NCBI GenBank assembly: GCA_007026445.1
Contig: VDMD01000044.1
Span: 169,334-233,333 of the forward strand
Length of the DNA stretch: 64,000 bases
Direction: 5' to 3'
Source of the DNA: Schizophyllum amplum
Taxonomy: Eukaryota > Basidiomycota > Agaricomycetes > Agaricales > Schizophyllaceae
The translations under genes were made by a program, and so were the position numbers. Positions 1-64,000 of this stretch are shown here, in pieces; positions within the stretch are counted from its first letter, which is position 1, and every line of letters starts with the position of its first letter. The notes below the pieces were generated by a model. That model searched no databases, was not told where the DNA came from, and was given only the letters and a program-made list of their open reading frames with translations.

Positions 1-3000
1 GAAGAGGCGAAGCCGACTGCGTCGAAGAGGCGAAGCCAACGGTCTTGAAGGGGCGAACCTGACGGCGGTCTTGATAAGCGAAGTCGACTGCGTCGTTGAG
101 GACGAAGCCGACTGCGTCGTCGGGGGGCGAAGCCAACCGCGATGTTGAAGGGGCGAAGTCGACTGCGGCTCTGTAGGACGAAGTCGCCTGCGTCGTTGAA
201 GGGCGAAGACGATCTTGAAGAGGCGAATCCGACAGCGGTGTCGAAGGGGCGAAGACGACGGCGGTCTTGAAGGGCGTAGACGGCAGCGTCGTCGAAGGGC
301 GAAGCCGACGACGTCGAGGCGAAGCCAACGGTCGTCGGGGGGCGAAGCCGACGGCGGTCTTGAAGAGGCGAAGACGACGGCGGCGACGTTGAAGGGGCGA
401 AGCCACGGCGGCGGTCTTGAAGAGGCGAACCTGACGGCGGTGTTGAGGCGAAGCCGACTGCGTCGTCCTGCGTCGTCGAGGGGCGAAGCCGACTGCGTCA
501 TCGAAGGGGCGAAGCCGACTGCGATGTTGAAGGGGCGAAGCCGACTGCGTCGTTGAGGCGAAGCCAACGGTCGTCGAAGGGGCGAAGACGGCGACTGCGT
601 CGTCGAGGCGAAGCCGACTTTGTTGTCGAAGGACGAAGACACCGATCTTGAAGGGGCGAAGCCAACGGTCTTGAAGGGGCGAAGCCGACGACGCTGGAGG
701 GGCGAAGCCAACGGTCGTCGGGGGGCGAAGCCGACTGCGTCGTCGGGCGAGAACGGCGGTCTTGGAGGCGAAGCCGACGGCTGTCTTGAAGAGGCGAAGC
801 CGACTGCGTCCCTGAAGAGGCGAAGCCGACTGCGCTGTCGGGCGAGAGGGGACGGCGACGCTTGAAGAGGCGAAGAGGGGACAGTGACGGTGAAGGGCGA
901 AGCCGACTGCGTCATCGGGGCGAAGCCGCCTGCGTCGTCGAGGCGAAGTCGACTGCGTCGTCGAAGGGGCGAAGTCGACTGCGTCGTCGGGGGGGCGAAG
1001 CCGACTGCGTCGTCGAAGGGCGACTGTGTCGTCGAGGGGCGAAGCCGACTGCGTCGTCAAAGGGCGAAGCCGCCTGCGTCGTCGAAGGGGCGCAGGACGG
1101 CTGTCTTGAAGGGCGAAGATGGCGACTGCGTCGTCGAAGGGGCGAAGTCGACTGCGTCGAAGAGGCGAAGCCGACTGCGATGTTGAAGGGACGAAGGACA
1201 GCGATCTTGAAGGGGCGAACCCGACTGCGTCGTCGAAGGGGCGAGGACGGTAGCGACGCGTAGGGCGAAGCCGACTGCGTCATCGGGCGAGAGGGGACTG
1301 CGTCGTCGAAGGGCGAAGCCAACTGTGTCGTCGAGGCGAAGCCGACTGCGATGTTGAAGAGGCGAAGCCGACTGCGTCCGTCGGGCGAAGTCGACTGCGT
1401 CGTCGGGGGGCGAACCTGACGGCGGTCTTGAGGGCGAAGCCGACGGCTGTCTTGAAGGACGAAGCCGACTGCGTCGTTGAGGCGAAGCCGACTGCGTCGT
1501 CGAGGCGAAGCCGACTGCGACGTCGAGGCGAAGCCGACGGCGACGCGTAGGGCGAAGCCGACGGTCGTCGGGGGGCGAAGCCGACGGCGTCGTCGAAGGG
1601 GCGAAGACGGCGGTCGTCGAAGGGCGAAGCCGACTGCGTCATCGGGCGAAGCCGACTGCGTCATCGGGGGGCGAAGTCGACGGCGTCGTCGAAGAGGCGA
1701 AGCCGACTGCGTCGTTGAGGACGAAGCCGACTGCGCTGTCGAAGGGCGAAGACGGCGGTGTCGAAGAGGCGAAGCCGCCTGCGTCGAAGAGGCGAAGCTG
1801 ACTGCGTCATCGGGGCGAGAGGGGACGGCGACGCTTGAAGAGGCGAAGCCGACTGCGACGCGTAGGGCAAAGACGGCGGTCTTGAAGTGGCGAAGTCGAC
1901 TGCGTCGTTGAAAGGGCGAAGCCGACGGTCGTTGAGGGGCGAAGCCGACTACGTCGTCGAAGGGGCGAAGCCAACGGCGTCATCGGGGCGAAGCCAACGG
2001 CGGTCTTGAAGGGCGAAGCCAACGGTCTTGAAGGGGCGAAGAGGGGACAGTGACGGTGAAGAGGCGAAGCTGACTGCGTCATCGGGGCGAGAGGGGACGG
2101 CGACGCTTGAAGAGGCGAAGTCGACGGCAATCTTGAAGGGCGAAGCCGACCACGTCATCGAAGGGGCGAAGCCGACTGCGTCGTTGAGGCGAGGACGGCT
2201 GTCTTGAAGAGGCGAAGCCGAGGGCTGTCTTGAAGGGGCGAAGAGGGGACAGTGTCGAAGGGCGAAGCCAACGGTCCTGAAGGGCGAAGCCGACTGCGTC
2301 ATCGAAGGGGCGAAGCCGCCTGCGTTGTCGGGCGAAGACGACGGCGGTGTCGAGGGGCGAGAGGGGACGGCGACGGTGAAGGGACGAGGGCGCCGGTCTT
2401 GAAGGCAGGCGAAGCCGACTGCGCTGTCGAAGGGGCGAAGCCGACTGCGGTCTTGAAGGGGCTAAGCCGACAGCGTTGTCGAAGGACGAAGCCGACCGCG
2501 GTCTTGAAGGGGCGAGGCCGACTGCGTCGTTGAGGCGAAGCCGACAGCGACGTCGAAGGGCGAAGCCGACTGCGTCGAAGGGGCGAAGCCGACCGCGTTG
2601 TCGAAGGGCGAAGCCGACGGCGGTGTTGAAGGGACGAAGCCGACAGCGACGTCGAAGGGCGAAGCCGACAGCAGCGAAGTTGAAGAAGACGGCGGTGTCG
2701 AAGAGGCGAAGCCGACTGCGATCTTGAAGGGCGAAGCCAACGGTCGTCGGGGGGCGAAGCCAACTGCGGTGTTGAAGGGGCGCAGGACGGTCTTGAAGAG
2801 GCGAGGACGGCGGTGTTGAAGAGGCGAAGCCAACGGTCGTCGAAGGGCGAAGCCAACGGTCTTGAAGGGCGAAGGACAGCGATGTTGAAGGGGCGAAGCC
2901 GACTGCGGCTTTGTAGGACGAAGACGGCAGCGAAGTTGAAGAAGACGGCTGTCTTGAAGGACTAAGCCGACGGCGGTCTTCAAGAGGCGCAGGACGGCTG

Positions 3001-3495
3001 TCCTGAAGGGGCGCAGGACGGCAGCGAAGTTGAGGACGAAGTCGACTGCGTCGTCGGGCGGAAGCCGACTGCGTCATCGAAGGGCGAGAGGGGACGGCGT
3101 CGTCGAAGGGGCGAGAAGGGACCGCGAGGTCGAAGAGGCGCAGGACGGCTGTCTTGAGGAGGCAAAGCCGGCGAGTTGGAAGGCGATGGGCGGCGGTCTT
3201 GATAAGCGAAGCCGACTGCTGTCTTGAAGGCAGGCGAAGCCGACCGCGTCATCGGGCGAGAGGGGACAGCGTTGTCGAAGGGGCGAAGACGGCCTTGAAG
3301 GCAGGCGAGGCCGACGACGTCGTCGAAGGGGCGAAGCCGACAGCGATCTTGAAGAGGCGAAGGGCGCCGATCTTGAAGGGGCGAAGCCGACGGCGGCGCT
3401 GAGAGGCGAAGACGGCGGTCTTGAAGGGCGAAGGGCGAGAATGGTCTTGAGGGGGTGAAGGGCGCCGGTCTTGAAGGGCGAGGGGACCGCAATAT
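1..3495. repeat. Degenerate CGA-rich minisatellite field
   Basis: The whole stretch is built from diverged copies of a unit of about 24-30 bp with core GGCGAAGCCGACTGCGTCG and variants (GACGGCGGTCTTGAAGG, AGAGGGGACGGCGACG). The spacing of the GGCGAAG cores is irregular. Long open frames occur on both strands only because TAA and TAG are rare in the unit; the proteins they would encode are arginine/serine/alanine monotony in several overlapping frames. I see no gene here. The array runs off the left edge of the window. Confidence 0.9.
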
Positions 3496-55123: not shown

Positions 55124-55694
55124 CTAGGGCTTAGCTGATGCGCTTATGCAGCGGATACGGAAGGGGCTGCCGATGTTGACGCTTGCGCCGAGCGCTGCCT
55201 GATGTTAGCGCACTAATGAGCAGCTGTTGGGCTAGACGCACCATAGCCTTGTCGTCCGCTGCTGCTGCCAAATGAGATGCCTTCCAGTCGGTCGTAGTGA
55301 TTCCGTGGCGCTTGGCCGAGTCCAATGTCTCTGCAGCGTCCTGGTTCCCATTAGCGCACTGATGAGCTGCGATCTGCGGAGGCGCACCTCGCCCGTTATC
55401 ATCTCAGCTAACGAAGACGTCTTCCATTCTGTCGTGGTGATGCCTTTGCGCCTCGCTGACTGCCACTCCTTTACTGTGCTGATGGCCTTCTCCATGCGCT
55501 CCCGCAGCACATGCCACTCCTTCTGCTTGCTCTTCCTTTCCTTGAGCTCACGGCGTAGCAGCTCGGCTTCGATGTCCTGAGAGGCGTGAGCTTGTGATCC
55601 CAGCAAGATGGAGGACACGAACAAACGACTTGCGGTTGGGGTGGTTGAACGCTTGCGCGAGCGCGCAGTCCGGGGCCGCACAAGTAAGACACAT
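55124..55694 (-). CDS. MCxxC mini-protein A (four exons, duplicated C-terminal module)
   Basis: Member of a local nine-gene family of unknown function. Exons 55694-55623, 55576-55388, 55340-55242 and 55198-55124 are all multiples of three, so every intron (46, 47 and 43 nt) is phase 0; total 144 residues. Exon 1 starts MCLTCAAPDC (M-C-x2-C-x4-C). Exon 2 is a charged helix (DIEAELLRRELKERKSKQKE, then RERMEKAISTVKEW) ending in the family motif WQSARRKGITTTEWK. Exon 3 is a diverged tandem copy of that motif (LDSAKRHGITTTDWKAS). The introns after exons 2 and 3 both contain CAGCT..TCA(G/T)TAGTGCGCTAA-like sequence, so exon plus intron were duplicated together. It is head to head with gene B, 135 bp apart. 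Confidence 0.72.
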
Positions 55695-55829
55695 GAGCGC
55701 CGGGGGATGGTGGTAAGAAGCAACCTGGGAGGCGTGAGAAAGCAGCCACACGATTATTTAAGCCATCAAGCCTTGATCGCATACGCTACCTGCCTTTATC
55801 ATCCCACCATCACCACAACCTATCCGCCA
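55695..55829. promoter_or_regulatory. Shared divergent promoter of mini-genes A and B
   Basis: 135 bp between the two ATGs. It contains a central GATTATTTAAGCC, TATA-like in both directions, about 70-80 bp from each start. Pyrimidine-flanked ACCACCATC/CCACCATCACC lies just upstream of each ATG. Confidence 0.5.
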
Positions 55830-56161
55830 ATGTGTGTTATCTGCACGAATCGAAAGTGTGAGGTCATTCGACTATTGAAATGCATGCTGCGCGCTGAAAA
55901 GGTGCGAGAACATGTGCGCGCTACAAGCTCAACACTAACGGTGTCCTTTAGACCCCAGCTAGTGTTGCCGAAGCCAGGCAGAAGGAACGCGGGAACATGG
56001 AACGGCTGGACCAGGAGCTATGCGAGATGCGCAAGGTCTTTAACGACCTTCACACCAGGTATCCCCGAGCGTTTTACGACACTGAGGACACGGATGCGAG
56101 GGACGCGGAGGAGAGGGCGGAGGGCGCCATGGCTGATGAGCCGCAGTTGCAGCACGAATAG
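55830..56161 (+). CDS. MCxxC mini-protein B
   Basis: Exons 55830-55901 (24 codons) and 55952-56161 (69 codons plus stop), intron 50 nt, phase 0; 93 residues. Exon 1 starts MCVICTNRKC (M-C-x2-C-x4-C) and ends LLKCMLRAEK. Exon 2 is a strongly charged predicted helix (SVAEARQKERGNMERLDQEL, then RKVFNDLHTRYPRAFYD) with an acidic end DTEDTDARDAEERAEGAMAD. No signal peptide or membrane segment. The three-cysteine cluster could bind metal in a dimer or form intermolecular disulphides; this is inference. Confidence 0.72.
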
Positions 56162-56246
56162 CATTAACGGTCATGTAATCCTGTATGCTGCGCGCGTCTG
56201 CAAACAATCAGCTGCTGCTGCCAAGCGAGGTTTATCCACGCACCTT

Positions 56247-56546
56247 TTACGCCCCACCAGCGTTGAACCACTCCTCATTCCACTTGCTTATCGTCTTTCC
56301 CTGCGCCTTTGCTGTCTCCCACGAGCTGGTGGCCTCTCTCAAGTTTGCAAGCACGCTTTTTTCCAACTCGTACTGCTCCTGCGTCAGGCGCAATTGCTCC
56401 TCGAGCTGCAGCAGCTCCTGCACCTGCCGCATGCAGCACAGGTCAGATAAGCGGATGCTCCCCACGCAAAGAACACGCACAAGGGATGCTTGCATTGGAT
56501 ACGCTCTTGCCAGATCGCAGTCGAGTTCGGCACAAGCAGGGCACAT
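56247..56546 (-). CDS. MCxxC mini-protein C
   Basis: Exons 56546-56481 (22 codons) and 56423-56247 (58 codons plus stop), intron 57 nt, phase 0; 80 residues. Exon 1 starts MCPACAELDCDLARAYP. Exon 2 is glutamine/leucine/glutamate-rich and heptad-like (VQELLQLEEQLRLTQEQYEL), ending in the family C-terminal motif WETAKAQGKTISKWNEEW. It is read through without a stop across the intron in one frame, so a retained-intron isoform would also be translatable. Head to head with the following gene, 100 bp apart. Confidence 0.72.
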   Translation of the reverse strand: MCPACAELDCDLARAYPMQASLVRVLCVGSIRLSDLCCMRQVQELLQLEEQLRLTQEQYELEKSVLANLREATSSWETAKAQGKTISKWNEEWFNAGGA

Positions 56547-56646
56547 GGTGGCGCAAGGCAGAATGTGGCGAGCGGTGTCATCTTATTGGCAATATGCGAC
56601 CGACGCACGCCCCTTTTCCCGATCGTCCATCTCACCCGCTTTCACC
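56547..56646. promoter_or_regulatory. Shared divergent promoter of mini-genes C and C'
   Basis: Only 100 bp separate the two ATGs. GCGCCACC and TTTCACC precede the two starts. GGCAATATGCG lies centrally; a clear TATA box is not seen. Confidence 0.4.
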
Positions 56647-56992
56647 ATGTCGACGTGCGCTGTCAACCAACAACTGCACTCTATGATCCAGTCGGGCACG
56701 GTAGAAGCTCCCTGCCTATCCTACCTCTTACACCTCTGACAGCCTTGTCCAGCCTCTCTGCCATGTGGCGCAAGCCATCATTGTAAAGCGCGAGCTGCTC
56801 AAGCGGCTGGAGCAGGACCTGGAGGATGTGCAGGAATCTGTGAACAACCTCGAGAGAATGTACTCGGATGTGCTGTATTATCCTCTGAATTGTGATTATG
56901 ACGAGGAGGAAGACGACGACCGCAACGAGCAGCAGGAGGAGCAGCATCAGATGGTTCAGGACAAAGACAGGGCGGCGGACGCGCAGGTGTAA
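56647..56992 (+). CDS. Mini-protein C' lacking the first two cysteines
   Basis: Exons 56647-56700 (18 codons) and 56753-56992 (79 codons plus stop), intron 52 nt, phase 0; 97 residues. Exon 1 reads MSTCAVNQQLHSMIQ and aligns with residues 8 onward of gene G (NTCAVKQNLQSMI), so the third cysteine is kept and the M-C-x2-C part is missing. Exon 2 is a charged helix (RELLKRLEQDLEDVQESVNN) with an acidic/glutamine tail (DYDEEEDDDRNEQQEEQHQM). It could be a degenerate or diverged member. The acceptor choice (GTCCAG at 56752) is set by frame. Confidence 0.6.
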
Positions 56993-57116
56993 ACATTATG
57001 TATCTTCAACATCGCTTACAGCGTGTATATCTGCATTGCATGCGCGTGAGCGCGCTCACTCTCTGGTTGCCCGTCAGCAGCGTGCTTGCTTTCGGACAAG
57101 TCACTCACAGCGGATG

Positions 57117-57378
57117 CTACGAGCCCTTCTTATCCACGTACTCCCTGACCGCCTTCTGGTAGTAGTCAATCTCATCGCGGACGTTGGCCTCCTCCTCCTC
57201 GCGCTTCTTTCTGGTGGCGTGCATCTTGCGCCACTTGTCCTCGACGCGGACGTATTCCTGATCTCGTTGTCAGCTGCGCACCCAAGATCCACGCGCGCCC
57301 TCTACGCACGCTGATGTGCACTTGCGGTCCTATGAACTGCGCCATCTCACACGTCTTCTTGTCACAAAACTGGCACAT
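57117..57378 (-). CDS. MCxxC mini-protein D
   Basis: Exons 57378-57310 (23 codons) and 57257-57117 (46 codons plus stop), intron 52 nt, phase 0; 69 residues, the shortest of the family. Exon 1 starts MCQFCDKKTCEMAQFIGPQ. Exon 2 is dominated by charge (VEDKWRKMHATRKKREEEEA, then VRDEIDYYQKAVREYVDKKG). A TATA-like AATATATAAGG lies about 90-100 bp upstream (top strand CCTTATATATT near 57470), and TCTCTTACCACCACC lies between it and the ATG. Confidence 0.72.
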
Positions 57379-57506
57379 GCCGGAGGTCGCGGTAGCTGCG
57401 ATTGCTGTTGGTCCGACACGATGGTGGTGGTAAGAGACAAGATGGGTTTCACGTTGCATCCTTCCTTATATATTCGTGCTCCCCTCCATCCCGATCTGTC
57501 ACTGGT

Positions 57507-57798
57507 CTATGGATCGGCGCTCGAGGTGCTTTCAGCGCCGACACCCCTCCTGTTCGCAGCCTTCCAAGCCTTGATGCGCTCCTTATACATCGCAATCTTG
57601 CTCTCTTCCTCCTTGTTTTCCATCTCCACACGGGTTCTGACTTGGCGTATGCCCTCGAGGGCGCGCATGGCGTACACGTAGTGCTGCGCTGCCCATCAGC
57701 AGCGTACAGGCAACCTTTCGGCCACGCACATAAAGGCTCACGGGTTCCGTCATCGTTTGCTGCAGCTTGCATTCCGCGTCGTAGCATTGATTGCACAT
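57507..57798 (-). CDS. MCxxC mini-protein E1
   Basis: Exons 57798-57730 (23 codons) and 57683-57507 (58 codons plus stop), intron 46 nt, phase 0; 81 residues. Exon 1 starts MCNQCYDAECKLQQTMTEP. Exon 2 is a predicted helix (YAMRALEGIRQVRTRVEMEN, then KEEESKIAMYKERIKAWKAA) ending NRRGVGAES, a relaxed version of the W-x-x-A-x-x-x-G motif. CATCTTGCCTTAGACCACC lies upstream of the ATG, similar to the CATCTTGTCTCTTACCACC upstream of gene D. The next gene upstream (E2) ends only 43 bp away, so its 3' end and the E1 promoter must overlap. Confidence 0.72.
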
Positions 57799-57841
57799 CT
57801 TTGACGGCTCGAGATGATGGTGGTCTAAGGCAAGATGGAGC

Positions 57842-58178
57842 TCAAGTGCACTCCTCGATATCAGGGACCAACAGCATGCCTTCCACCTCGGCCTCCTCCT
57901 CCAGCTCTTCGGCTTCCTCGTCATCTCCCTCTCCCGACGCAAACACCTCTGGACAGAGCTCTGCCAGGTTTTTCATTCGCACCGCCAAGTGGCCCCGCTC
58001 CAGGTACCGCTCGCACAGCGCCTTCTTTTCTGCTTCGTATTGCTCCCAGAGCTCGGCGTACGTCTGCGCTGCGTTAGGGAGTCACCCAGGGCGATCTGAC
58101 GCTCACCATTCCCATCTCGAGCACTTGGGTAAGCACTTTGCGCCTTCCGCACTCGCTGCTGTCGCAAACGTGGCACAT
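57842..58178 (-). CDS. MCxxC mini-protein E2
   Basis: Exons 58178-58107 (24 codons) and 58063-57842 (73 codons plus stop), intron 43 nt, phase 0 using the second of two adjacent CAG acceptors; 97 residues. Exon 1 starts MCHVCDSSECGRRKVLTQV. Exon 2 is a charged helix (TYAELWEQYEAEKKALCERY) followed by LAVRMKNLAELCPEVFASG and a very acidic segment (EGDDEEAEELEEEAEVEG). If the first CAG is used the frame would be lost. Same family architecture as its neighbours. Confidence 0.7.
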
Positions 58179-59164
58179 GGCTATGCGGTTTCAATGGGTG
58201 TGGGAAGCAGGTTGTGTTTCCCTAAAGGGTCTATTTAGCCACTCCTAAATCTCCCACGGCTGGCACCACCTCGCCTAACTATATACTTTCCGCGAGGCAC
58301 TTGTCCCGCACCTTTCGGTCAGTAAAAAGTGACCCAACAGTGACCTTTGGGGCAGCCAAAGTAAAGGGCCGATGGCGGGTGCCGAGGCACTAGAGGTTTT
58401 AGTGATCAAGTGCCTCGCCACATCACTAAAAGTGGTTCGCCTATTAGGCCGGTGGACGGTAGGATTGCAGTCACTGTGGGGTGCAGAAGAGCCAGCAGAT
58501 GCAAGTCTAGAGTCAAAAAGTGTTCACCGAAGCACTTGAGGGTCAAAAAAGTGTTCACCGAAGCACTTGAGGGTCAGAAAAGTGTTCACCGAAGCACTTG
58601 AGGGTCAAAAAGTGGGCAGCGAAACACTGTTAGGCCAAGCTGAATGACTGTTTGGGGCTTACAGTCTACGCGCTGTGTATATATGGGGTGAGGAGACATA
58701 TGGCACCCCAAGTGGGCTACCTGGTGTGATATACAGGCCATGGGGCAGCTTGGGACATGGTGGGCATGCGATTGGGGGTATGACAATAGAAGGCCGTGCA
58801 GGCTGGCAGTCAACCTCGGGGCCAAAGTCGTAGAGCAGCGATACTTGCACACAACAATATAGAAACAAATAGTGGTCCCACAGCCATCTGGGGTATGAGA
58901 CATGAATATATCACCCCAAACATGACCCTAGTGAATGCCAACAATAGTGTTTATTGCTTTTTTCATTAATGAATTCCGCAGCCAAATAGCTGCGGAATTC
59001 GTTTTTGCCAGAGCCCTCTATAGGCTTTTAGGGTGGGTGTGGCAGCATTCTGGAGGATTGTTGGGGCATATAGGTGAATGGGGTAGGCCAAAATAGGGTG
59101 AGACTTGTGCTGGGTGCTGCTGGAGCATGGGGTCCACTGATCGTAGGCTAAGCAGAGTGCCATT
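58179..59164. other. Inverted repeats around GCGAGGCACTTG and a short tandem array
   Basis: GCGAGGCACTTG (58292-58303) and its inverse (58407-58418) bracket about 100 bp, with a further GCCGAGGCACT at 58381. At about 58510-58615 a 30-bp unit containing AAGTGTTCACCGAAGCACTT repeats three to four times. 58620-59164 has short reverse frames only. No gene. Confidence 0.6.
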
Positions 59165-59640
59165 GAGGGCTATTTGGTGTGCGCGCATGCAGCCAATCGT
59201 CCACGGACCAAAGCAGGCACACAGATGGGGGTATATAGTGCAGAAGAGGTGCTACATTGATATTTGAGGTACGCAGAGAGGCGCGACTCATCTTGTTCAC
59301 CCAGTTCCCTGCGATCGAGGGCTATTTGGTGTGCGCACATGCAGCCAATCGTCCACGGACCAAAGCAGGCACACAGATGGGGGTATATAGTGCAGAAGAG
59401 GTGCTACATTGATATTTGAGGTACGCAGAGAGGCGCGACTCATCTTGTTCACCCAGTTCCCTGCGATCGAGGGCTATTTGGTGTGCGCACATGCAGCCAA
59501 TCGTCCACGGACCAAAGCAGGCACACAGATGGGGGTATATAGTGCAGAAGAGGTGCTACATTGATATTTGAGGTACGCAGAGAGGCGCGACCCATCTTGT
59601 TCACCCAGTTCCCTGCGATCGAGGGCTATTTGGTGTGTGT
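59165..59640. repeat. 152-bp tandem satellite, three copies plus partial
   Basis: The block GAGGGCTATTTGGTGTGCGC recurs at 59165, 59317, 59469 and 59621, a constant 152-bp period. The first three copies are nearly identical; the fourth breaks off after about 20 bases and continues as diverged sequence. Each copy contains GGGTATATAGTGCAGAAG and TTGTTCACCCAGTTCCC. Confidence 0.9.
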
Positions 59641-60633
59641 GTGTGCTACTGATTGCCCACGGACCACAGTGGCTATCCAGATAGGGGCATAGGGTGCAGA
59701 AAAGACAATCAATGTGGTCAAAACGGTTATTTTGGCACTGTGTGGGTCACACAAGGAAAGAAAGGACAGGTAGAGTATTTCTCAGAAAAGAGCTGGCCCT
59801 AGTGTGGGAACAAGATGGACTCTGCATATGGGTCAAAGTGTGACCTGGTAGCGCTTTGTTTACTGATTATTTTGCAAAAAAAACCGAGTTAATCCAGGCT
59901 GGTTTGAGCCCACAATGACATGCAGAACCAGCCAGAGCTAGAAAAGGATTGATGGCATCAAAAAGCTTGATCAGCAGGCAATTTTCATCCTTTCTCCTTG
60001 CCTCCTCCCACCATCTGAGCTGCTTTGGTCACCCCCTTGGCCTGTTTTCATTGCCTAAAGCCCTTTGCCCTCATCTAGAGGCCTTCTAGCCCTTTCCTTT
60101 GGCTGGTCTGGCCAAGTTGACAGACTGGTAGGTGGATGTACTTGTGATCATGGCCTGTTCTGAGCCCTTGTTGCCCTCCAGCCTCCAGAAGCCCAGCTAT
60201 ATATCTTGTGTAGGGGTCATTTGCAAGAGGAGCTGCCCTAGGTGAGTGGCCTGCTGTCCTCCTTGGGCTGTCCTGACTCTTTCTCATTACAGAACTGCCC
60301 AAGTCTGATACCCTGCCCCCCTCCCACCTGTCCTTCCTTCATCCCTAGGTGGGTAGGCTGCCCATGGTTGCCCAGCCCTCTTTTCTGACCATCCTATCAT
60401 CATGCCCTCCTCTTGCCCATCTCCCTTCATTGCTCTATCAGTCAATTCAACCCCTTCTTCTTCACCTCCTAGACTTTTGAGGGGTTCCAAACTCTTGAGT
60501 ATGTGACCTGCTCATCCCTGTTCTCCCTCTTCTGACCATGCTTGCCTTTCAAGGTTTGCACCCTCACTATATACCTTCCCATATTCTGTTTGGCCACCCC
60601 TTGGCCTGTCTAGTCTTTATTGCCTATACCATC
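59641..60633. other. CpG-free region upstream of the ATG-only-exon gene
   Basis: No convincing gene. From 59886 to 60694 there is not a single CG dinucleotide although the sequence is roughly half G+C. CACTATATACC at about 60567 is a plausible TATA box for the gene starting at 60634. Confidence 0.7.
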
Positions 60634-61184
60634 ATGGTGAGTATTGTTACTAGATTCAGCTTTCACCTCTGATGGATTTCTTTTTTGCAGTCAGACGATG
60701 AATATGTTGTTGTTTCCTCAGATGAGGGGTCGCAAAACTTTGTCCTGGTGGAGGTTGGACCACCGGCTGCTCCTGCTGTGGCCCCTCTGCCAGAGGATGC
60801 TGCTGACGAGTCAGAGTCCGATGTGTCTGGCTCTGTCAAGTCGGACGTGTCTGGTTCTGTCAAGTCGGACGTATCTGAGTCTTCAGACTCCGATGATGAC
60901 CTCCTGGCAGGGCCTCCCCAGGTGTATCGTGCACGGCGTTCGGCTGGTAGGCCGTCTTCAGACCCCAAGCCTGTTGCTGAGGGTGCTGAAGGGTCTGGCC
61001 CCTATCCCTCGTATTCTGGTTACTGCATGCAGGCAAACGTTTGCTACCATGGCCACATGTGTGAGCGTTTGGTAAGGTGTCATGCATTAGGGCATGAATT
61101 TGGGTGAATGCGACCATTATCTGCTAACGTTTCATTTGAACTCAGCCGATAGACATCAATAATGAGGTTATGTACTCATGTTAG
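60634..61184 (+). CDS. Acidic serine-rich small protein with ATG-only first exon
   Basis: Proposed exons: 60634-60636 (only the ATG, followed by GTGAGT), 60691-61071 and 61146-61184; introns 54 and 74 nt; 140 residues. The start is set this way because exon 2 has no ATG near its 5' end, follows a strong TTTTTTGCAG, and ATG|GTGAGT sits 54 bp upstream below a TATA box. The protein reads MSDDEYVVVSSDEGSQNFVL, has SGSVKSDV repeats and an SESSDSDDD acidic run (casein-kinase-like sites), and ends with a Cys-rich piece (YCMQANVCYHGHMCERL) and a final Cys. No family is recognised. It lies inside the mini-gene cluster but lacks its N-terminal motif. Confidence 0.6.
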
Positions 61185-61540
61185 AGCTTGCGAGGCCTAT
61201 TGCCTGCTATCGCGGTGACATGCTTAGGACTCGAAGACTGTAGGACTGACACCAATCTATGCTACACTTGTTGGTTAAGCATAAGCATTCGTGAGGATCG
61301 TATTCCGCGCAGACTAAACTATGCCTTAACTCACTATAGTTTAGTTAATTTGAGTTTCAATTATAAGTGACTAGATTTATTTCGCTTGAGCGGTGGGAGA
61401 TCTTTCACTAAACTATGATCATTAAGGCGATAGTTTAGTGTTTACAATATTAAGGTCAATAGCTATTTCGAGTGGGCGCTGGGAGCTGTTTGACTAAACT
61501 ATAAGCATTCAGGCCATAGTTTAGTGTTTACAATATTTCA
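61185..61540. repeat. Three related hairpins in tandem
   Basis: ACTAAACTAT...ATAGTTTAGT stems of 10-11 bp occur at 61313-61322/61336-61345, 61406-61416/61430-61440 and 61493-61502/61516-61526, with loops of 13 nt. The second and third are embedded in an 86-bp direct repeat that ends GTGTTTACAATATT. AT-rich, no gene. Confidence 0.75.
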
Positions 61541-61630
61541 GACTCTCATTCGCCATCAACAAAGAATATGCGCAGATATATCCTCGACAATGAAGTGCAG
61601 GGTGAGCAGCTTTGATCCAAGCCATCTGTA

Positions 61631-61942
61631 TTAAATGTCTGACCCCGGCGCACTCGCCTGTTGAGCAGCCTTCCACTCCTCCAATGACTCCCCTCGCTGC
61701 TTTGCTGCCTCCCATGACGCCAGCATCTCCCTCGCCTCATCGAGGTCGTCTTGACAGTCTCGGAGCTCTTTCTCCTTGTTCTCGCGATACACCCTTTCCT
61801 GCGCAAGCAGCTTCAGAGCCCGTTTATGATCCTAAGATAGGTGAGATAAGTAGAAAAGCGAAAGAAACAGACATACATAGCCGTCTTGAAGCGGGTACGC
61901 CTGAGCGAGTGCGCAGTCCTGCGAGGAACACGGTTTGCACAT
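61631..61942 (-). CDS. MCxxC mini-protein F
   Basis: Exons 61942-61877 (22 codons) and 61831-61631 (66 codons plus stop), intron 45 nt, phase 0; 88 residues. Exon 1 starts MCKPCSSQDCALAQAYPLQ, very close to genes A (ALAQAF) and C (DLARAYP). Exon 2 is a charged helix (LLAQERVYRENKEKELRDCQ, then DDLDEAREML) ending with the full family motif WEAAKQRGESLEEWKAAQQ. Head to head with gene G, 204 bp apart. Confidence 0.74.
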
Positions 61943-62146
61943 TCTCCACAAGTGGTGGGCGTTGCGTTGAGTGGGTAAAGTTCTCGTCAATGTGATGATG
62001 GCAGGAAGCAAGGGATTGATTATCAGACAGGAGGCGCACATGCATCGATTCGTACCGATCGCCTGCGATCATTCCGATCAGTCTCTCCTTTTGCTCATTA
62101 GCGCACACAAAGGACATCCTCTGTTACCTCGCCGTTTACTACCGCG
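61943..62146. promoter_or_regulatory. Shared divergent promoter of mini-genes F and G
   Basis: 204 bp between the two ATGs. TTACCTCGCCGTTTACTACCGCG precedes gene G's start; CCCACCACTTGTGG precedes gene F's start. No clear TATA box. An incidental M-C-x2-C peptide frame at 62041 on the reverse strand lacks the third Cys and is not taken as a gene. Confidence 0.4.
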
Positions 62147-62448
62147 ATGTGTCTGATCTGCGACGACAATACTTGCGCAGTCAAGCAAAATCTGCAATCC
62201 ATGATCCTGTCGACAATGGTGAGCACCATCGTGAACTCAGAGCGTTGTTGGGCGCTGACCAAGCTTACCAGACCGCTCCCGCTGTCGAAGAGGCCACACA
62301 GAAGGAGCTCGAGCGTATCAAGGAGCTCGAGATCGAGCTGCGTAGGATACGGCAGGCTATTGCTCACCTGCACTCTCGAAACTACGAGGTCTTTTACGAA
62401 ACATCGGATCAGGCAGACCAGGACGAGGAAGCGGATGGTGAAAGCTGA
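62147..62448 (+). CDS. MCxxC mini-protein G
   Basis: Exons 62147-62218 (24 codons) and 62272-62448 (58 codons plus stop), intron 53 nt, phase 0; 82 residues. Exon 1 starts MCLICDDNTCAVKQNLQSM. Exon 2 is a charged helix (VEEATQKELERIKELEIELR, then RIRQAIAHLHSRNYEVFYE) with an acidic end (DQADQDEEADGES). The exon 1 sequence is nearest to gene C' and the acidic tail resembles gene B. Confidence 0.74.
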
Positions 62449-62869: not shown

Positions 62870-64000
62870 ACACGGGCGGTAGATACGAGTTCCAACGCAA
62901 TATGGTGTTGGAGGGGCTGCTGTGGGACGAGTGGGTGGGCTCCGATAGGTGCGCGCTGGCAAAACGGACGCGCGGGCCGTTGTCGACAATTGTGGCGCCA
63001 CGCGAGGCGAGACTCGTCCCCGCGAAAGGCGATCCGCGCGTGCGAGTTCCAACCCAATGTGGTGTTGGAGGGGATGCTGGGGGACGAGGGGGTGGGCTCC
63101 GATAGCTGCGCGCTGGCAAAACGGACGCGCGGGGCCGTTGTCGACAATTGTGGCGCCGCGCGAGGCGAGACTCGTCCCCGCGAAAGGCAATCCGCGCGTG
63201 CGAGTTCCAACCCAATGTGGTGTTGGAGGGGATGCTGGGGGACGAGGGGGTGGGCTCCGATGAGTGCGCGCTGGCAAAACGGACGCGCGGTGCCGTTGTC
63301 GACAATTGTGGCGCCGCGCGAGGCGAGACTCGTTCCCGAGAAAAGCGTGCCGCCCGTGCGAGTTCCAACGCAATGTGGTGTTGGAGGGGATGCTGGGGGA
63401 CGAGGGGGTAGGCTCCGATAGCTGCGCGCTGGCAAAACGGACGCGCGGTGCCGTTGTCGACAATTGTGGCGCCGCGCGAGGCGAGACTCGTTCCCGAGAA
63501 AAGCGTGCCGCCCGTGCGAGTTCCAACGCAATGTGGTGTTGGAGGGGATGCTGGGGGACGAGGGGGTAGGCTCCGATAGCTGCGCGCTGGCAAAACGGAC
63601 GCGCGGTGCCGTTGTCACAATTGTGGCGCCGCGCGAGGCGAGACTCGTCCCCAAGAAAAGCGTGCCGCGCGTGCGAGTTCCAACGCAATGTGGTGTTGGA
63701 GGGGATGCTGGGGGACGAGGGGGTGGGCTCCGATAGCTGCGCGCTGGCAAAACGGACGCGCGGTGCCGTTGTCAACAATTGTGGCGCCGCGCGAGGCGAG
63801 ACTCGTCCCCGAGAAAAGCGTGCCGCCCGTGCGAGTTCCAACGCAATGTGGTGTTGGAGGGGATGCTGGGGGACGAGGGGGTGGGCTCCGATAGGTGCGC
63901 GCTGGCAAAACGGACGCGCGGTGCCGTTGTCAACAATTGTGGCGCCACGCGAGGCGAGACTCGTCCCCGAGAAAAGCGTGCCGCCCGTGCGAGTTCCAAC
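62870..64000. repeat. 157/158-bp tandem satellite, seven or more copies
   Basis: TGCGCGCTGGCAAAACGGACG recurs at 62950, 63107, 63265, 63423, 63581, 63738 and 63896, a period of 157 or 158 bp. Each unit contains TTGTCGACAATTGTGG (truncated or altered to CACAATTGTGG or CAACAATTGTGG in some), GGCGCCGCGCGAGGCGAGAC and GGTGTTGGAGGGGATGCTGG. The array continues past the window edge. The long reverse-strand open frames here are products of the repeat, since its period alternates between register-changing lengths and has few stops. Confidence 0.92.

Follow-up and report, generated by a model that had tools for sequence, protein, structure and literature searches.

Cysteine clusters standing beside helical dimerisation segments are known from the fungal Zn2Cys6 clusters and from the CxxC dimers of the zinc hook of Rad50. 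The Zn2Cys6 cluster is built on the pattern Cx2Cx6C..Cx2Cx6-8C within one chain, and the CCHC zinc knuckle on Cx2Cx4Hx4C. As regards gene layout, the HD1/HD2 mating-type pairs of basidiomycetes are composed of divergent, unlike partners occurring in several paralogous pairs (excerpts of PMC4915694 and PMC8305134), and the TLO (Med2) genes of Candida albicans, which are single genes for a Mediator subunit, are lineage-specific, amplified towards chromosome ends and divided into structural subgroups (excerpts of PMC9713401 and PMC10721199). Herein, a locus is described from the window, i.e., the whole 64,000-nucleotide stretch of the basidiomycete Schizophyllum amplum that was analysed (assembly GCA_007026445.1, contig VDMD01000044.1, positions 169,334 to 233,333), the right end of which is the end of contig C249. 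It harbors nine intron-split mini-genes, termed A, B, C, C', D, E1, E2, F and G, whose products begin in nearly every case with three cysteines (Cys) in the pattern M-C-x2-C-x4-C. The family to which they belong is confirmed to be real and larger than first noted; it is under constraint, has so far been seen in one species and is undescribed as far as searched.

All nine genes could be rebuilt from the sequence at the positions claimed for them in an earlier note. Their first exon is 22-24 codons long, or 18 in C', and their second exon is charged; the phase-0 intron between the two measures 43-57 nt and is bounded by GT and AG in every case. The pattern M-C-x2-C-x4-C is matched 167 times genome-wide (49.65 Mb) versus 68 times for the reversed pattern. 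Of these 167 matches, 103 come from the window and the fetched cluster loci, which together make up about 215 kb, and window positions 1-54000 contain none; the 64 matches left elsewhere approximate the control count. When the search was conducted by exon 2 instead, the fetched sequence yielded 107 places, and 98 of these carry a Cys exon no more than 260 nt upstream, while such an exon occurred in none of 20000 random 260-nt stretches drawn from window 1-54000. The nine places lacking it comprise six C' copies, two cuts at contig edges and one interrupted exon 1. Genome searches with one query for each of the six classes described below, which give lower bounds since only the best candidates were scored, returned credible matches only on ten cluster contigs among the matches listed; C300 and C212 also matched in one class search with E of about 0.22 and were taken as chance.

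Public protein sets contain sequences identical to models of these loci, annotated as Schizophyllum amplum with BD626DRAFT numbers. Eleven of 17 public proteins equal the two-exon model exactly (P0003, P0004, P0005, P0007-P0011, P0013, P0014 and P0015), including the spliced product of gene E2 (P0003) and the spliced model shared by three near-identical copies of gene C (P0005), and the other six (P0001, P0002, P0006, P0012, P0016 and P0017) differ from it by being fused or partial or by having extra exons. P0015 corresponds to gene F, as present in the window and on C223, minus its 45-nt intron, and its only source is 'lgn', with contigs of at most 933 bases; the unspliced frame of gene F meets a stop after 36 residues. 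If 'lgn' is taken as assembled public sequencing runs, the simplest reading of P0015 would be a spliced transcript of gene F. The small size of the genes and the repeats nearby might suggest chance open reading frames or non-coding repeats, an explanation that deserves almost no weight in view of the reversed-pattern counts, the codon-level constraint reported below, the exon-2-based test and the spliced protein among the public sequences. Across the whole family, this artefact reading is refuted by the control counts, the constraint, the 98 of 107 places and P0015.

The earlier note had proposed that the Cys tag is conserved while the coiled coil diversifies, a contrast that found no support within classes, where exon 2 is constrained nearly as strongly as exon 1. 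Over 19 within-class pairs, which re-use genes and are therefore not independent, the pooled ratio of nonsynonymous to synonymous substitution rates (dN/dS) was 0.28 for exon 1 (dS 0.96) and 0.35 for exon 2 (dS 0.90), with exon ends kept fixed; automatic donor choice made exon 1 too short in many class 3, 4, 5 and 6 genes and in one class 1 gene. On these codon comparisons, both exons are under purifying selection. Adaptive diversification was rejected because dN/dS exceeded 1 in no single pair among the same 19. The statement that second exons share almost no identity stands between classes but not within them, where exon 2 is 39-83% identical in the 19 between-cluster pairs. In the window, A, C and F, in which a second-exon motif had been noticed, have one second-exon class in common, and so do B, C' and G.

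Six classes can be distinguished, namely 1 (A, C, F), 2 (B, C', G), 3 (D), 4 (E1), 5 (E2) and 6 (E3), the last of which the window lacks, although the near-identical copies C164, C243 and C301 have it. In the usual order, classes 1 and 2 are divergent and are followed by classes 3, 4, 5 and 6 in tandem, an arrangement recurring on C30, C164, C254, C275, C291 and C301, in part with damaged members (class 3 on C30, class 5 on C254). Runs of three class 1/class 2 pairs are found on C242, C243 and C291, and C275 carries two tandem modules, the second of which is without classes 1 and 4 and has a damaged class 5 gene. Neighbouring class 1 and class 2 genes that form a pair are always divergent; one class 2 gene on C275 is without a class 1 partner. 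In a tree of 34 proteins, classes 1, 3 and 4 (alpha) are separated from classes 2, 5 and 6 (beta) with support of 100/99, and classes 1, 2, 4, 5 and 6 each form one group, with class 3 not resolved as one. Class 1 has the A type as its outer branch, with F and C inside (91/83), and class 2 has the B type as its outer branch, with G and C' inside (87/73); such parallel branching would be expected from the duplication of whole pairs. In hhalign comparisons, whole-protein profiles linked 1-3-4 with probabilities of 94-96 and 2-5-6 with 95-97.

Divergent unlike partners in several subtypes, together with modules that vary from one another, would also be anticipated if variant alpha/beta pairs dimerised selectively like HD1/HD2 and the modules labelled nuclei or strains. 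Such a role in nonself recognition is judged improbable, since positive selection was not seen in the 19 pairs, one assembly holds several module types together, and no homeodomain or other effector domain was found in 30 members (Pfam, E <= 0.1), among which the weak, non-homeodomain matches included HNF-1_N (0.031), Meis_PKNOX_N (0.034) and PBC (0.095).

None of the 103 motif places in the clusters, which are spread over ten contigs, is more than 40.6 kb from a contig end, and 81 are no more than 16 kb away. C275 is the only cluster contig that ends in a TTAGGG run, 2.8 kb past its last gene, and C7, C172 and C240, which have longer TTAGGG runs, have no entry in the motif match lists; a position at the chromosome end is hence shown once and is only likely for the other clusters. 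Near-identical copies occur on six contigs including that of the window, with 96-98% identity in pieces of 1.2-3.3 kb. The proposed birth-and-death turnover of these paralogues is supported by the missing class 6 gene in the window, the truncated C' and the damaged copies found; six of 93 distinct copies yielded no gene model, with L015 3626 narrowly below the score limit, and a class 5 copy (L008 9353) has an interrupted exon 1. The near-identical copies, the closeness to contig ends, the damaged members and the failure of word-based searches to find a relative beyond the species would all suit a selfish or passive amplicon, in which exchange between chromosome ends spreads cassettes that do little or nothing for the host. 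This account is nevertheless rather unlikely, because dN/dS stays below 1 in both exons for all computable pairs at a pooled dS of about 1 and the gene order has been kept, a combination that indicates long functional constraint.

The reading favored here, to which a probability of about 0.4 is assigned, is that alpha and beta products assemble as helical heteromers whose N-terminal three-Cys segments share a predicted metal site. Alpha proteins (classes 1, 3 and 4) would pair with beta proteins (classes 2, 5 and 6), and the partners would be jointly expressed; their long helices would assemble into an alpha/beta heteromer in which the Cys tags lie next to each other. The cysteines would bind zinc rather than form a disulphide, and the missing tetrahedral ligand might be supplied by the partner chain or by the N-terminal amine. 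The heteromer could act as an intracellular scaffold or regulator displaying acidic tails. Core charge ranges from +1 to +5 in class 3 and from 0 to +6 in class 4, and from -2 to -5 in classes 5 and 6; strongly acidic C-terminal tails belong to class 2 (-6 to -20) and class 6 (-9 to -15) proteins and to three of six class 5 proteins (class 5 range 0 to -16). AlphaFold2 predicted for E2 (7 rows) an N-terminal loop followed by helices 11-21 and 26-60, low-confidence short helices at 62-66 and 72-85 and an unstructured end (mean predicted local distance difference test score, pLDDT, 70.5), and for the class 1 protein P0005 (2 rows) helices 9-15, 17-62 and 67-76 (pLDDT 83.3). A bolder version is regarded as a long shot: the 3+3 Cys of an alpha/beta pair would build a binuclear six-Cys zinc cluster divided between the two chains, and the module of six classes would be a novel combinatorial machine built of helices, evolving as a unit at chromosome ends.

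The cysteines could also work chain by chain: once Met is removed, the exposed N-terminal Cys would serve as a lipid anchor, as an oxygen-sensitive degron or as a chelator together with its own amine, the helices would be just a spacer or bait, and alpha and beta need not meet. In all 41 distinct exon 1 sequences examined, Cys comes immediately after Met, a feature that the motif search required; the exon-2-based search left just the nine of 107 places without Met-Cys, all otherwise explained, although variants with Met and Cys separated were not searched separately. Cys 5 and Cys 10 are, however, equally fixed, beyond what an N-degron is generally understood to need. Set against the CCHC pattern, residue 10 is Cys in 41 of 41 sequences, and residue 15 is most often L, A, T, F or V, with Cys there in the C275 class 1 gene. 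Only the cysteines of Cx2Cx4C are conserved, and additional ones in some members are not. A per-chain role also leaves the divergent alpha/beta layout and the parallel subtypes unexplained, and it is accordingly considered a minor contender.

Several observations weigh against the heteromer reading. Three Cys per chain are one ligand short of a tetrahedral site, and no conserved fourth ligand was found in residues 1-18; moreover, the Cys segment is predicted at low confidence, with a mean pLDDT over residues 1-10 of 66 in E2 and 50 in P0005. Linkage alone could produce the parallel subtypes. Between the lineages, whole-protein hhalign gave probabilities of 79 for 1-2 and 83 for 3-5, not far below those within a lineage (3 to 66 for the other seven), and exon 2 alone gave weak profile links even inside a lineage (top probability 21), which together imply that the separation of the two lineages owes something to exon 1. 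Five of the seven class 1 members lack a basic core, one class 2 core reaches +4, and three of six class 5 rows have nearly neutral tails. A hydrophobic period near 3.5 was significant in class 2 only (P 0.02; class 1 P 0.07, the rest P 0.15 to 0.97), for which reason the 'coiled coil' of the earlier note is better read as 'long helix': long helices are indeed predicted, but a heptad period is significant in one of six classes.

A 14-base element with the consensus TGCCTCCTACCACC lies upstream of the ATG in many family members and scored 123.8 against 31-43 in six shuffled sets, the real upstream set having been given more starts than the shuffled ones. It is strong in class 1, in four of five class 3 and in four of six class 5 genes, and weak in eight of nine class 2 genes. 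A matrix made from 22 chosen sites passes 22 of 41 upstream stretches, a count biased upward since the training sites were included in the comparison, versus 34 of 5000 random stretches and 0 of 46 stretches before other long open reading frames. The element points to shared regulation of some family members, but it may be a general core promoter element.

The coordinates of the nine genes and of the stretch that interrupts their module are collected in Table 1.

Table 1. Mini-genes and the module-breaking stretch in the window (positions counted from its first letter).
Feature	Class (lineage)	Span	Strand	Exon 1	Intron	Exon 2 or remark
Gene A	1 (alpha)	55232..55694	-	55694-55623 (MCLTCAAPDC)	46 nt	from 55576
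Gene B	2 (beta)	55830..56161	+	55830-55901	50 nt	55952-56161
Gene C	1 (alpha)	56247..56546	-	56546-56481	57 nt	56423-56247
Gene C'	2 (beta)	56647..56992	+	truncated (MSTCAVNQQL)	52 nt	
Gene D	3 (alpha)	57117..57378	-	57378-57310	52 nt	57257-57117
Gene E1	4 (alpha)	57507..57798	-	57798-57730	46 nt	57683-57507
Gene E2	5 (beta)	57842..58178	-	58178-58107	43 nt	58063-57842
Module-breaking stretch		58277..61000				similarity to other copies stops at 58276, F/G similarity resumes at about 61000
Gene F	1 (alpha)	61631..61942	-	61942-61877	45 nt	61831-61631
Gene G	2 (beta)	62147..62448	+	62147-62218	53 nt	62272-62448

Genes B, C' and G are the divergent partners of A, C and F, respectively, and acidic tails are encoded by exon 2 of gene B and by the open exon 2 of gene C'. 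Cys is found at residues 2, 5 and 10 in eight of the nine genes, as had been stated, and C' is the exception. Its truncated start recurs in six of six C' copies in the fetched loci and the window, with the L017 copy frameshifted within exon 1; because relatives of C' on C242, C243 and C291 begin with MCNICGQSTCNINQ, C' has lost the first part of the tag, with its first two Cys. The extra exons ascribed to gene A (in the window, second donor at offset 307 and next exon at offset 354, counted from the ATG) are present in the public model P0017 of a near-identical A copy, where the architecture is extended by another intron and by a duplicate of the GITTTxWK exon. In a class 2 copy on C243 (L006:7531), the usual end of exon 1 would need a GC donor, so that the gene either has a GC-AG intron or is damaged.

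The module-breaking stretch stands where the class 6 gene sits in other copies and contains a 152-bp repeat in 3.2 copies at 59158-59637. The part searched (58300-59300) has one further full occurrence, on C72 with 100% identity, which points to a low-copy insertion or an exchanged segment. On C242, a relative of C' is interrupted in exon 2 (L005:5450) and the sequence from there on matches the window from 61001, which marks a shared exchange breakpoint. Beside gene G, a 158-bp tandem array (7.1 copies, 96% matches) occupies 62886-64000 and reaches the contig end, and the similarity of C223 and C242 extends into it. A long degenerate minisatellite with units of about 23-26 bp and multiples lies at the left end of the window (1-3110). 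On C275, an open frame resembling reverse transcriptase (L012:6045-7154) adjoins the TTAGGG repeats and is reminiscent of telomere-linked Penelope-like elements, and an interstitial run of three TTAGGG is located at about L012:4943.

The earlier note knew of no described system with this architecture, and no known family was matched in Pfam, PDB or protein searches. The Pfam scan (six, then 30 members, E <= 0.1) yielded scattered weak matches only, with 25 families listed; the PDB sequence search gave nothing credible, the best match being prefoldin subunit 4 (E 0.013) amid generic helix matches; Foldseek against PDB returned 0 matches for the class 5 model and, for that of class 1, a single match with E 6.2. 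Three protein searches gave 6, 8 and 6 matches, every named one from S. amplum, and no homologue was found outside this species by searches that need shared exact 5-residue words, which distant relatives in S. commune or elsewhere could escape; the presence of S. commune proteins in the searched set was not controlled for. No description of the family was found in the titles and abstract openings of literature on the family, organism and architecture, and the occurrence of tiny, intron-split genes in one species may explain why.

Among the described systems, the TLO genes share with the mini-genes their restriction to a lineage, their amplification and their subgroups, but the mini-genes form six-class modules without a known domain, and Med2 is absent from the 25 listed Pfam families, with single weak matches to Med30 (0.0029) and Med9 (0.035). 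The HD1/HD2 pairs are resembled only in logic, by the analogy of layout: the mini-genes are far smaller, have an N-terminal three-Cys exon, lie near contig ends, and form runs of at most three pairs, accompanied by tandem genes from four other classes. With Cx2Cx4C, three Cys at the extreme N terminus, they fit neither the Zn2Cys6 pattern nor that of the Rad50 zinc hook, and Cys at position 10 sets them apart from the CCHC knuckle. While amplification near chromosome ends is a known kind of family behaviour, no match was found for six old paralogous classes of about 70-130 residues, ordered, divided into two lineages and led by a near-invariant three-Cys exon, which provide a compact case in which to ask how heteromeric assembly arises and diversifies via the joint duplication of subunits.

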